Of a stretch of 64,000 nt of DNA, positions 2,361 through 55,722 are shown one piece after another. The stretch lies in NCBI RefSeq assembly GCF_030408755.1, contig NZ_CP047209.1, positions 1,922,001 to 1,986,000 of the forward strand, written 5' to 3'. The position numbers were made by a program, and so were the translations under genes. This DNA comes from Corynebacterium felinum (GTDB lineage Bacteria > Actinomycetota > Actinomycetes > Mycobacteriales > Mycobacteriaceae). Below the pieces are notes generated by a model. That model made no database searches and was not told the origin of the DNA. It saw only the letters and a program-made list of their open reading frames with translations. Every line of letters begins with the position of its first letter. Within the stretch, counting starts at the first letter, position 1.

Positions 2361-2420
2361 ACTCGACCTTTCCACCGCCAACGCACACCATACCCACCCC
2401 TTCATACCAAAAGGTCGAGC
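2361..2420. repeat. 60-bp inverted-end element, copy 1 (interior family alpha)
   Basis: Begins ACTCGACCTTTCC and ends CCAAAAGGTCGAGC, exactly 60 bp. The interior is nearly identical to copy 2 (two differences in about 38 bp). Followed by AACCC, part of a flank shared with several other copies. Confidence 0.85.
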
Positions 2421-2488
2421 AACCCCCGCCAGCGATGCACACACCAACACTCTCCCACCTCTCACCAACCCCAAGCCCCACGCACCCA

Positions 2489-2548
2489 ACTCGACCTTTC
2501 CACCGCCAACGCACGCCAGACCCACCCCTTCATACCAAAAGGTCGAGT
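2489..2548. repeat. 60-bp inverted-end element, copy 2 (alpha)
   Basis: Begins ACTCGACCTTTCC and ends CCAAAAGGTCGAGT, exactly 60 bp, with a perfect 11-bp terminal inverted repeat. It starts 128 bp after the start of copy 1. Confidence 0.85.
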
Positions 2549-2556
2549 AGCCTATG

Positions 2557-2575
2557 GGCGGTTAGCCTAAATTAG
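2557..2575. promoter_or_regulatory. Possible DtxR-like box
   Basis: The core GGTTAGCCTAA matches 11 consecutive positions of the DtxR consensus TTAGGTTAGCCTAACCTAA; overall 13 of 19 match. It lies about 550 bp from the fas start and near the 3' end of rlmN, so no obvious target promoter is present. It may be chance. Confidence 0.25.
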
Positions 2576-2634
2576 GCCGGAATGCGCCTCGACTGGTCGT
2601 CGAACTTGCAAAAAAAATTTCATGGCCCATGCGT

Positions 2635-2674
2635 AAACCCCCTCGCCACACAATAAAACTGTGATGAGGGGGTT
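2635..2674 (-). terminator. rlmN terminator
   Basis: AACCCCCTC at 2636 pairs with GAGGGGGTT at 2666-2674, with extra CACA/TGTG pairing inside. It lies about 65 bp past the rlmN stop, with a short T run on the minus strand. Confidence 0.7.
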
Positions 2675-2737
2675 GGTTACACTTACACCCACCAATGCTG
2701 GAATTGGCCAGAATCGGCAAAGTAAAATTGTTGCGCT

Positions 2738-3835
2738 TTAACGCTCCTCGGCCGCAAGCTGACCACAGGCTGCAGCAATTTCTTGACCCTTGGTATCACG
2801 CACAGTACAAGTCACGCCCTGGGCGATCACGCGGCGAACAAACTCGTCTTGCTGCGCCTTCGGGGAAGCATCCCACTTCGAACCCGGGGTCGGGTTCAAA
2901 GGAATCAGATTCACATGAGCCTTAGAACCTAAAGCCTTGCGCAGCTTCTTGCCCAACATATCGGCACGCCAACCTTGATCGTTCACATCACGAATAAGAG
3001 CGTATTCAATCGAGACACGACGGGAGGAACGATCCGCATAATAAGCGGCGGCGTCCAAAACTTCCTCCACCGACCAGCGGTTATTCACCGGCACAAGGGT
3101 ATCGCGCAGCTCATCATCGGGAGTATGCAAACTCACCGCGAGGGTCACCGACATATCTTCATCCGCAAGCTTGCGAATCGCTGGTGCCAAACCCACCGTG
3201 GAAACGGTGACGTTACGCTGCGAAATCCCAAAACCTTCCGGCACCGGCTGGGTAATTTGGCGCACCGCCGACACCACACGCTTATAGTTAGCCAAAGGTT
3301 CGCCCATACCCATGAACACAATATTGGACAAACGCCCACCTTCCGCATCCATCGTGGCCGCGGCGGCACGCACCTGATCCACAATTTCGCCGGTCGAAAG
3401 GTTACGGTCCAAACCGCCCTGGCCAGTAGCGCAGAATGGGCAAGCCATACCGCAACCCGCCTGAGAAGAAATGCACAAAGTTGCGCGGTTGGGGTAGCGC
3501 ATCAAAACGGACTCCAGTAATGTGCCGTCGTGAAGCTTCCACAGTGTTTTCTGCGTCTCCCCATCATCAGCTTCCACCTGACGCACCGGCTCCATCAAAG
3601 TAGGAAACAGTGCGTCTGCTACCTTCTCACGTGCCGCTGCTGGCAGGTCAGTCATGGTGCGCGGGTCAGCCTCCATGCGACCGTAATAGTGCTTCGCCAA
3701 CTGGTTGACACGGAACTTGGGCAGGCCAAGTTCGGCAACAGCCGCGATACGTTCGTCGTGACTCAAATCAGCAAAGTGCTTCGGTGGCATACTCCGGCGC
3801 GGAGTAGAAAAGTTTAAGGGGATGGGTGTAGACAT
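2738..3835 (-). CDS. rlmN: Dual-specificity 23S rRNA/tRNA adenine-C2 methyltransferase RlmN
   Basis: This 365-aa radical-SAM enzyme methylates C2 of A2503 in 23S rRNA and A37 of some tRNAs. The iron-sulfur motif CxxxCxxC is seen as CGMACPFC at about residue 128, followed by the SAM-binding stretch [11 protein letters not shown]. The C-terminal Cys in AAACGQLA (about residue 357) would be the methyl-carrying/resolving Cys. Length is normal for the family. ATG at 3835 is used. The gene is monocistronic, divergent from the LapA-like gene and terminated by the hairpin at 2635-2674. Confidence 0.96.
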
Positions 3836-3974
3836 AATCCACTAATCTTGTCATGTTTTGCCACAAAGGTCGATTTCTTTGGGGCGGGAAGTGACAAGCT
3901 CGTTGCACAACAATTTTCTACGATTTTCGCCACTGTGGTTGTATTAGCACCACCATTCAAGTTGAATAGTGTTT

Positions 3975-4391
3975 ATGCCAGAACGTAACCACAACAATTT
4001 TCAACCCGACACCACTGTAAGCGGCGACCACACCGAACCGCTGCTGGACGATACCTTCGACACTGATTTCAGCGCACCTGCAGCCGAGAACCTGCCCGCC
4101 GTGGCGGAGGACCACGTCGCACCCGCGCCCGCCCCGAAGCCTGCGGTGAAAAGCTCTTTCGCCGGGGGCACGTGGGTTGCGCTTATTATCGGCGCATTGC
4201 TGTTAATTGTGCTGCTTGTGTTTATTCTGCAAAACCAGCAGCCGGTTGATTTAACCCTGTTTGCGTGGAACTTTACATTCCCTGCCGGCGTGGGTTTCTT
4301 GCTTGCTGCCATTTTAGGAGCGCTTATTATGGCCATCGTTGGTGGCGTGCGCATGCTGCAACTGCGCCGCCAGATCAAGAAGGCACACTAA
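3975..4391 (+). CDS. LapA/DUF1049-domain membrane protein
   Basis: About 138 residues. An acidic, proline/alanine-rich cytosolic N-terminus of about 60 residues is followed by two hydrophobic segments (about 65-87 and 98-122) around FILQNQQPVDLTLFAWNFTFP, and a basic tail. That QN-x-V-x-L-x-F-x-W pattern between two helices is the LapA (DUF1049) signature. In Gram-negatives LapA assists LPS assembly; in corynebacteria the role is unknown, so no function is claimed. A GTG at 3969 is in frame two codons upstream of the chosen ATG. No clear ribosome binding site precedes either. A strong terminator follows. Confidence 0.8.
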   Translation: MPERNHNNFQPDTTVSGDHTEPLLDDTFDTDFSAPAAENLPAVAEDHVAPAPAPKPAVKSSFAGGTWVALIIGALLLIVLLVFILQNQQPVDLTLFAWNFTFPAGVGFLLAAILGALIMAIVGGVRMLQLRRQIKKAH

Positions 4392-4408
4392 GCTTTCACG
4401 TTTCTCAC

Positions 4409-4456
4409 CCCCGTTACTCGTTGTTATGCACACAACGCGATGTAGCGGGGGTTTTG
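4409..4456 (+). terminator. Terminator after the LapA-like gene
   Basis: CCCCCGTTAC (4409-4418) pairs with GTAGCGGGGG (4443-4452, one wobble). An inner stem CGTTGT/ACAACG continues the helix, and TTTTG follows. Confidence 0.85.
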
Positions 4457-54537: not shown

Positions 54538-54876
54538 TTAGATAGCGTCTGGGCCACGTTCGCCGGTGCGCACTCGCACGATATCGACGATTTCGGTGAC
54601 CCACACTTTGCCGTCACCGATTTTGCCGGTGTGCGCCGCGTCGACGATAGCAGTAATAACATCCTCAACCATGTTGTCGTCGATCACAACCTCAATTTTG
54701 ACTTTGGGCACGAAATCGATGGCATATTCCGCGCCACGATACACTTCGTTATGCCCTTTTTGCTGGCCATAGCCTTGCGCTTCAGTGACAGTCATGGCGT
54801 GCACGCCTACTTGCTCCAGCGCATCTTTAATATCCATGAGGGTAAAGGGCTTCACGATGGCGGTCACAAGCTTCAT
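54538..54876 (-). CDS. glnB: Nitrogen regulatory protein PII
   Basis: 112 residues from ATG 54876 ([20 protein letters not shown]); a GTG at 54885 is in frame. The T-loop target Tyr is in [15 protein letters not shown] near residue 50; [20 protein letters not shown] is the C-terminal signature that binds ATP/2-oxoglutarate. PII integrates nitrogen and carbon state; the modified form controls AmtR. Cotranscribed with glnD. Its usual upstream partner amtB is missing; repeats start 150 bp upstream. Confidence 0.95.
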
Positions 54877-55031
54877 GATCTTCACTGTCCTTCAATCAAA
54901 AAAGTTTCGCATATCCGACCCACAGCCCACGCACGGTTTTTGCGGGGATGAATCTATGCCTCATGCAAACTCTAGCAAACAACCCTTCCACACAAATTTC
55001 TCAGCCATAGGCGCTCCTTTCCCTTCGCTCA
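54877..55031. other. glnB promoter region
   Basis: About 155 bp upstream of glnB on the minus strand; no AmtR box could be recognised by eye. The first 60-bp element follows directly. Confidence 0.35.
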
Positions 55032-55091
55032 ACTCGACTTATTCGCGGGCAAGCGCCCCGTTTCGTCGCCCTACACACGGAAAAGTCGAGT
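55032..55091. repeat. 60-bp inverted-end element, copy 7 (delta)
   Basis: ACTCGACTTATTC to GGAAAAGTCGAGT, exactly 60 bp. The first base pairs of the two ends match perfectly (ACTCGACTT/AAGTCGAGT). Confidence 0.85.
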
Positions 55092-55115
55092 ACGCACTCG
55101 CAGCACCACAAGGAA

Positions 55116-55175
55116 ACTCGACCTTTTCCCAAAGACATGCGTGATTGCACAGCCCAAGAAACCAAAAAGTCGAGT
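55116..55175. repeat. 60-bp inverted-end element, copy 8 (epsilon)
   Basis: ACTCGACCTTTTCCC to CCAAAAAGTCGAGT, exactly 60 bp, followed by AACCCACC. Confidence 0.85.
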
Positions 55176-55310
55176 AACCCACCACCCAGAAGGTGAGCAT
55201 GAAAAATCAGCCCGCACGAACAACACCCAAGATCCTGCCTGAACCCCTGAGCACCACCCACACCACAACACTGACCCACCACAACCAGTAATGCTCTCCC
55301 CTGATGCCCT

Positions 55311-55370
55311 ACTCGACCTATTCACAAACAAGCGCCCCGTTTCGTCGCCCTACACACGGAAAAGTCGAGT
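55311..55370. repeat. 60-bp inverted-end element, copy 9 (delta)
   Basis: ACTCGACCTATTC to GGAAAAGTCGAGT, exactly 60 bp; interior almost identical to copy 11. Confidence 0.85.
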
Positions 55371-55394
55371 ACGCACTCGCAGCACCACAAGGAA

Positions 55395-55454
55395 ACTCGA
55401 CCTTTCCACAAATATATGCGTGATTGCACAGCCCAAGAAACCAAAAAGTCGAGT
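55395..55454. repeat. 60-bp inverted-end element, copy 10 (epsilon)
   Basis: ACTCGACCTTTCC to CCAAAAAGTCGAGT, exactly 60 bp, followed by AAACCCACC. Confidence 0.85.
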
Positions 55455-55578
55455 AAACCCACCACCCAGAAAGTGAGCACGAAAACTCAGCCCGCACGGC
55501 CAACACCCAAGATCCTGCCTGAACCCCTGAGCACCACCCACACCACAGCCAACCAGTAATGCTCTCCCCTGTTGCCCT

Positions 55579-55638
55579 ACTCGACCTATTCACAAACAAG
55601 CGCCCCGTTTCGTCGCCCCACACACGGAAAAGTCGAGT
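55579..55638. repeat. 60-bp inverted-end element, copy 11 (delta)
   Basis: ACTCGACCTATTC to GGAAAAGTCGAGT, exactly 60 bp. Confidence 0.85.
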
Positions 55639-55662
55639 ACGCACTCTACGCACCACAAAGAA

Positions 55663-55722
55663 ACTCGACTTTTCCCCAAATACATGCGTGATTTCACAGC
55701 CCAAGAAACCAAAAAGTCGAGT
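55663..55722. repeat. 60-bp inverted-end element, copy 12 (epsilon)
   Basis: ACTCGACTTTTCCCC to CCAAAAAGTCGAGT, exactly 60 bp. Compared with copies 8 and 10 the left end has T for C at position 8, which restores perfect pairing with the right end. Followed by AAACCCACC. Confidence 0.85.

Follow-up and report, generated by a model that had tools for sequence, protein, structure and literature searches.

The twelve 60-bp elements considered here lie in a 64,000-nt stretch of the Corynebacterium felinum genome (NZ_CP047209.1, positions 1,922,001-1,986,000; hereafter the window) and have many relatives elsewhere in that genome, a single contig of 3,236,025 bases (G000). On balance we favour the reading that they serve as bipartite recognition sites for a lineage-specific nuclease, part AbiEi-like and part Vsr/I-Bth0305I-like, which is itself mobile and whose sites have become dispersed into orphan arrays. 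That this nuclease binds the element ends, acts at their centre and drives their spread we infer from its adjacency to arrays, from the matching of nuclease and end types, and from its predicted fold.

Close members of the nuclease family adjoin arrays in seven of seven cases in C. felinum and in four of four in Corynebacterium mustelae (G026), at loci that all lie outside the window. The protein is predicted to consist of an AbiEi-like part, with the fold modelled over residues 50-205, and a nuclease domain whose modelled catalytic fold is Vsr-like, as in the EDxHD homing endonucleases. One member, P0001, has 317 residues, and its D247 and E257 are invariant. In all 11 cases the array lies on the 5' side of the gene, a position that would also suit the main rival explanation, in which the same protein and sites serve as a regulator or roadblock: the upstream arrays would be operators for autoregulation, the dispersed arrays would make up a regulon or a network that structures the nucleoid, and defence would be the task of the nuclease part. 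Also in favour of the regulator, the promoters of AbiEi and Rv2827c reportedly contain sets of inverted repeats to which each protein itself binds. However, several related nucleases have an array on their 3' side (L190, L193, L197, L205 and L175), which does not.

Some distant homologues of the nuclease adjoin arrays of the same layout with different ends. When the 1.4-kb flanks of 42 homologue loci were scanned for repeated inverted pairs (span 50-80), 18 of 84 flanks contained at least two copies of a pair and 6 at least three, compared with none of 42 loci for shuffled upstream flanks, and two pairs and no triple for 220 real control windows; pairs that were widely separated or consisted of N (L172, L182 downstream, L183, L185, L206) were taken as chance. 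The arrays that we trust have the ends TGTGCTGCG with a span of 63 bp (in G165, C. mustelae and G136, the last a draft assembly of a metagenome-assembled Corynebacterium), GTCGGAGAT at 68-70 bp (C. mustelae and G136), ATAGCTGCGAA at 62-63 bp, TTAGCTGGG at 62 bp, GCTAAGCGG at 66 bp and ATTTGGTGG at 75 bp (all G165), TAAGCTCCC at 63 bp (G119) and GCTCGAC at about 60 bp (G067). The Corynebacterium genome G165 has nine copies of the distant nuclease (L189-L197), with at least five end types beside them. Each end type is confined, among the loci scanned, to the loci of its own nucleases, except for short CTCGAC-like arms, which give scattered single matches. In a tree of 48 proteins every end type represented by several rows is monophyletic (7, 3 and 2 rows; support at least 100/98). 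Arrays cluster in one half of the tree, where 10 of 16 members besides the canonical ones have them; for the other half the figure is 1-2 of 25 (the second being L182 upstream, its pair 207 bp apart; Fisher test 6e-5, taking 1 of 25), its 24 other members showing no convincing array. That different ends stand beside related nucleases and track their tree is the strongest argument for nuclease and arrays belonging together.

Copied units provide a further line of evidence. They are found at 550, 587 and 829 kb and at 1.05 and 2.53 Mb in C. felinum, with three more in C. mustelae, and DNA identity through gene and leader is 97-99% among the former and 90-96% among the latter. Homology stops within 3 bp of the nuclease stop codon in six of six comparisons and runs on into the array in five of them. 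The unit contains the nuclease gene alone and carries no other gene along (no search aimed at AbiEii was made). Near-identical copies occupy distant loci; gene and leader have therefore been moved or copied, usually with the array, and the copying of all three to distant places is a second point against the regulator.

The initial annotation held that the spacing of the two ends is under constraint and proposed that the distribution of end-to-end lengths be determined across Corynebacterium genomes. Exact-end copies number 62 in C. felinum, and although spans of 42-72 bp were allowed they are all of 60 (50 copies), 59 (10) or 61 bp (2), with none for the reversed pattern used as control; allowing up to three end mismatches at a span of exactly 60 bp gives 122 copies, compared with one in the control. 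A looser sample comprised 440,139 bases, or 14% of this genome, made up of the window and 39 stretches chosen for half-sites. Here convergent half-sites, tallied at spans of 22-130 bp, lie 59 (34), 60 (109) or 61 bp (4) apart, with singles at 63, 70, 108 and 114, and 164 copies are found when as many as three end mismatches are allowed (125 of 60 bp, 35 of 59, 4 of 61). These fall in 50 clusters, all of them intergenic by simple gene calls, as are 43 of 44 clusters in C. mustelae, the other overlapping a weak call. The strict element is present in 3 of 201 Corynebacterium genomes, namely C. felinum (62), C. mustelae (39) and G136 (22). The proposed comparison thus gave a sharp peak at about 60 bp over the reversed-pattern control, and neither many other spacings nor a set of copies that are all recent duplicates of one sequence was encountered.

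Solo ends with at most one mismatch also occur in the fetched C. felinum stretches (9 intergenic, 4 of them exact), three of which were fetched because of such solos. A second rival reading is that another transposase spreads the elements and that the nuclease genes merely share tolerant intergenic sites. It may be said for this possibility that solo arrays outnumber gene-linked ones, and that the 60-mer of C. mustelae occupies the central part of a dispersed repeat some 300 bp long. On the other hand, arrays beside every close paralogue, and different ends beside related nucleases, would not be expected; the Y1 transposase (PF01797), present in 5 of 121 genomes of the genus, has no match in C. 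felinum; and no larger unit bounded by these inverted ends was seen in the fetched stretches. We therefore consider another transposase improbable. A miniature inverted-repeat transposable element derived from an insertion sequence was also looked for, and no distant inverted pair of solo ends was found in the fetched stretches (14% of the genome).

Within the ends TCGAC is nearly invariant, one letter pair or so excepted, and variation is seen at positions 8, 9 and 10 (positions 7-11 reading CCTTT, CTTTT, CTTAT, CCAAT, CTCTT and others). The half-site extends outward as about GNGYW and inward as TCG. Over 11 positions the two ends of one copy agree at 9.36 in C. felinum, against 9.29 for shuffled partners (p 0.15, n=110), and at 9.44 in C. 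mustelae, against 9.49 (p 0.71, n=54), with position 9 in C. felinum coming closest to a signal of co-variation (p 0.06). As the ends vary but do not co-vary, they behave as independent half-sites in duplex DNA and not as a hairpin, and that they are protein half-sites is well supported. The idea, raised at the outset, that the element is read as RNA is not supported by these results. Being inverted repeats the ends could pair, in RNA or in single-stranded DNA; yet positions 8-10 match no better than shuffled ones, RNAalifold gave no two-sided change in any of seven predicted pairs from 36 C. mustelae and G136 sequences, and Rfam had no match in the window and found only tRNAs in 8 of 32 C. 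mustelae stretches scanned. A hairpin is, in our judgement, very improbable indeed.

The interiors had been described as unrelated, which is true of their diversity (at a 72% identity cut the 164 copies fall into 108 types) and too strong in other respects, as a weak consensus, an A/T-rich centre and the inward extension of the half-site are common to them. Oriented copies carry 6.36 bits over 38 interior positions (83 dereplicated 60-mers), compared with 1.15 bits in ten shuffles (s.d. 0.18, largest 1.44), and at positions 29-32 of the 60-mers the A/T content is 74% in C. felinum and 72% in C. mustelae, against 45% and 44% in the interior. Element orientation tracks the replication arm in C. 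felinum (35 of 43 and 34 of 40 after dereplication) and is mixed in C. mustelae; this may only reflect base skew. The GC skew of array interiors and spacers in C. felinum is 0.33 and 0.38 on the left arm and -0.31 and -0.18 on the right, compared with 0.07 and -0.11 for other intergenic DNA of the same stretches. Interiors and spacers are strongly G- and T-rich on the leading strand, as if often single-stranded during replication.

On the favoured reading, a pair of nuclease molecules would occupy the inverted half-sites (about GNGYWACTCGACYTWTTCG), and their catalytic domains would meet over the A/T-rich centre; such a dimer geometry would fix the length near 60 bp and leave the interior largely free. 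The mobile cassette would comprise nuclease gene, leader and upstream array, with the stop codon as its gene-side edge, and arrays would grow and shrink by whole units. Most arrays, including the three in the window, are without a gene and would be orphan sites, either dispersed or left over. That a protein dimer or transposase-like enzyme acts on both ends, as the initial annotation suggested, is still the best explanation of the element, and a candidate enzyme family has now been found beside the arrays.

Several observations weigh against this reading. The match to AbiEi covers AbiEi residues 55-195 and leaves most of the winged-helix domain unmatched, Pfam scores of four full nuclease proteins lie under the curated cut-off, and a Foldseek search by itself had no hit below E 0.001. 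Of the 50 C. felinum clusters about 42 are without a nuclease gene, and no relic of one was found near them; strict copies number 22 in G136, and yet its draft assembly has only distant nuclease homologues. At 587 kb the array next to the copied gene and leader is of another kind, the search for empty sites gave no clean one, and 6 of 16 members of the array-bearing half of the tree are without a convincing array. Conservation of the ends at orthologous sites, as judged from the sequence comparisons below, suggests host use, which plain selfishness does not require. Searches of NCBIfam with the four nuclease proteins, and of phages and plasmids for the nuclease, gave no match.

The arrangement of the arrays also has to be considered in choosing between a mobile nuclease and a regulator. 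Steps between neighbouring elements in C. felinum peak at 113-117 bp, with lesser groups near 84, 95, 105, 127 and 136. When one step is kept per pair of interior types, the 78 steps below 145 bp are phased at 10.5 bp (R 0.53), and the same holds for the 34 that do not belong to the main peak (R 0.50, p about 2e-4, after trial of five periods of 9.5-11.5). This phasing, which would favour the regulator, is absent from 13 longer C. felinum steps and from 14 steps in C. mustelae (R 0.17), the latter counting against it. Nor do array neighbours have a common function apart from the nuclease family, among the 71 of about 100 scanned (very long, very short and cut proteins being left out, and 10 further proteins scanned separately). 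Ends kept at orthologous sites again favour the regulator. Taking both sides together we judge it unlikely.

For the conservation itself, C. mustelae and G136 were compared, as were C. felinum and C. mustelae. All 13 distinct G136 clusters with a fetched C. mustelae counterpart hold elements in both genomes, a figure that is ascertained in that the compared stretches were fetched for having elements, and copy number differs at 5 of the 13 places. Clusters without a fetched counterpart are L016, L026 (also L043 and L045), L028 and L036; the C. mustelae place matching L028 holds a 61-bp element with one end changed, and that matching L036 has no element, its edges not being clean. Identity over 14 orthologous copies (flank identity at least 0.60, among 22 rows) is 302/308 in the ends, 435/532 in the interiors and 1740/2240 in the flanks, the figure for the ends being partly ascertained, since a pair counted only when each of its copies was detected (at most three end mismatches, positions 8-9 free). 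C. felinum and C. mustelae share four intergenic regions with elements. Both flanks are orthologous in two of these, between inosine monophosphate dehydrogenase and a second IMPDH-like protein (93% and 72%) and between a permease and its neighbour (86% and 79%), and in the others one side only is matched, by a 738-residue protein (91%) or haem oxygenase (79%). Short interspecies matches in three of the four fall mainly on the ends, with a few others and a 113-bp stretch by the next gene start, and the fourth has none at the settings used.

Two observations concern the surroundings of these elements. In C. mustelae (L101-L132) and G136 (L016-L036) the repeat of about 300 bp around the 60-mer often occurs as tandem pairs about 275 bp apart; Rfam had no match to it in 8 stretches scanned. 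At L103 of C. mustelae a 356-codon gene is duplicated side by side (3426-4493 and 5366-6433), with an element pair between the copies.

Comparison with described systems helps to place the family. Repetitive extragenic palindromic (REP) elements and bacterial interspersed mosaic elements (BIMEs) are short, palindromic and intergenic, occur in clusters with many orphans, and are tied to RAYT, a single-gene mobile Y1 enzyme. The present elements are likewise short, intergenic and clustered, with many orphans and a link to a single-gene enzyme. Here, however, the enzyme is a Vsr-like nuclease and not Y1, the ends are under no pairing constraint, and the interior is of fixed length but drifting. 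Membership of REP/RAYT was rejected, as C. felinum has no PF01797 and the ends vary independently without compensatory stem changes. The proposed working of the system resembles both REP/RAYT and homing endonucleases, but the system fails the tests that define the former. EDxHD homing endonucleases such as I-Bth0305I share the modelled catalytic fold, and a review states that I-Bth0305I dimerises on a target of nearly 60 bp, comparable to the span of our elements. Unlike I-Bth0305I, the C. felinum family shows no intron or single allelic target, has a fused AbiEi-like part and many sites beside its own gene. Homing behaviour, meaning specific cleavage and transfer of its own gene, may be a property of the family, and copied cassettes are seen in the sequence. 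AbiEi antitoxins of AbiE systems are similar in the modelled fold and in having inverted sites upstream of their own gene. AbiEi is reported to be autoregulating, its sites being 23-bp repeats paired at a distance of 3 or 13 bp in one promoter, whereas here 60-75-bp units form arrays that are also genome-wide, a nuclease domain is fused and the copied unit is one gene.

It is conceivable, with chances that we put a little short of even, that these nucleases constitute a Corynebacterium class of self-mobile AbiEi-Vsr enzymes with lineage "dialects" of 60-75-bp bipartite sites, whose phased orphan arrays are kept by selection, in effect a protein-only analogue of REP/RAYT based on a nuclease of the homing type. 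If so, a dispersed repeat family would acquire a partner and a mechanism, and multi-copy proteins now called hypothetical or DUF559 a role. Matched pairs of nuclease and end type would allow swap tests of the paired-end reading and of the evolution of specificity. We know of no described system pairing this nuclease type with dispersed site arrays, and searches of open-licence papers listed none.

Within the window all twelve elements of the initial annotation were recovered at their positions, each 60 bp long. Its statement that they run from ACTCG to CGAGT holds in general and fails for three (2361, 29228 and 29444), which have 1-3 end substitutions. Array 1 has two copies, at 2361..2420 (right end ACTCGACC..GGTCGAGC, ending in GAGC) and 2489..2548 (exact at both ends). 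Array 2 has four, at 29228..29287 (two changes in the right end, which finishes in GAAC), 29361..29420 (exact at both ends, with a differing interior type), 29444..29503 (one change per end, beginning ACTCGG and ending in GAGC) and 29557..29616 (exact at both ends). The six copies of array 3, in which two interior types alternate, are at 55032..55091, 55116..55175, 55311..55370, 55395..55454, 55579..55638 and 55663..55722. All three are orphan arrays, lying between genes and without a nuclease gene; their neighbours include genes for a radical S-adenosylmethionine protein, ketopantoate hydroxymethyltransferase, O6-methylguanine methyltransferase, a GlnD-like protein and an SRP54-type GTPase. 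The plasmid collection had no match to a window stretch.

On the scale of the chromosome, the sites of the nucleoid-occlusion proteins Noc and SlmA are many and dispersed. The present elements share this feature, and in its strict form the family is absent from a large terminus-side stretch; they differ in forming bipartite 60-bp arrays and in the lack of a second ParB-family protein. Occlusion of the Noc type was set aside, as C. felinum, C. mustelae and G136 have one ParB_N match each and the nucleoid-occlusion listing gave no lead. The strict-free stretch of C. felinum covers 0.9 Mb (1,023,352-1,924,488) and holds the base-skew switch; at least two looser copies lie just inside it, at 1.049 Mb, among the matches listed. 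A search with the dif pattern gave nothing usable. In proteobacterial bins (L021, L022, L030, L031, L037) a longer palindrome, GGGTCAGACTCGACTTTT..AAAAGTCGAGTCTGACCC, has an inner part with ACTCGAC ends at 58-60 bp, and these five matches to the element pattern were set aside on account of the further outer arms.

A separate word, the 13-mer GGCGTCGANAAGC, looks like an uptake-signal or Chi-like dispersed word. It occurs 178 + 173 times in C. felinum, against 1 + 0 for the reversed control, both in genes and between them and on both strands (for example at window positions 33218 and 50032 and at L064:4244). Among 121 genomes it reaches 291 + 301 occurrences in another Corynebacterium and is nearly absent (0-3) from others.

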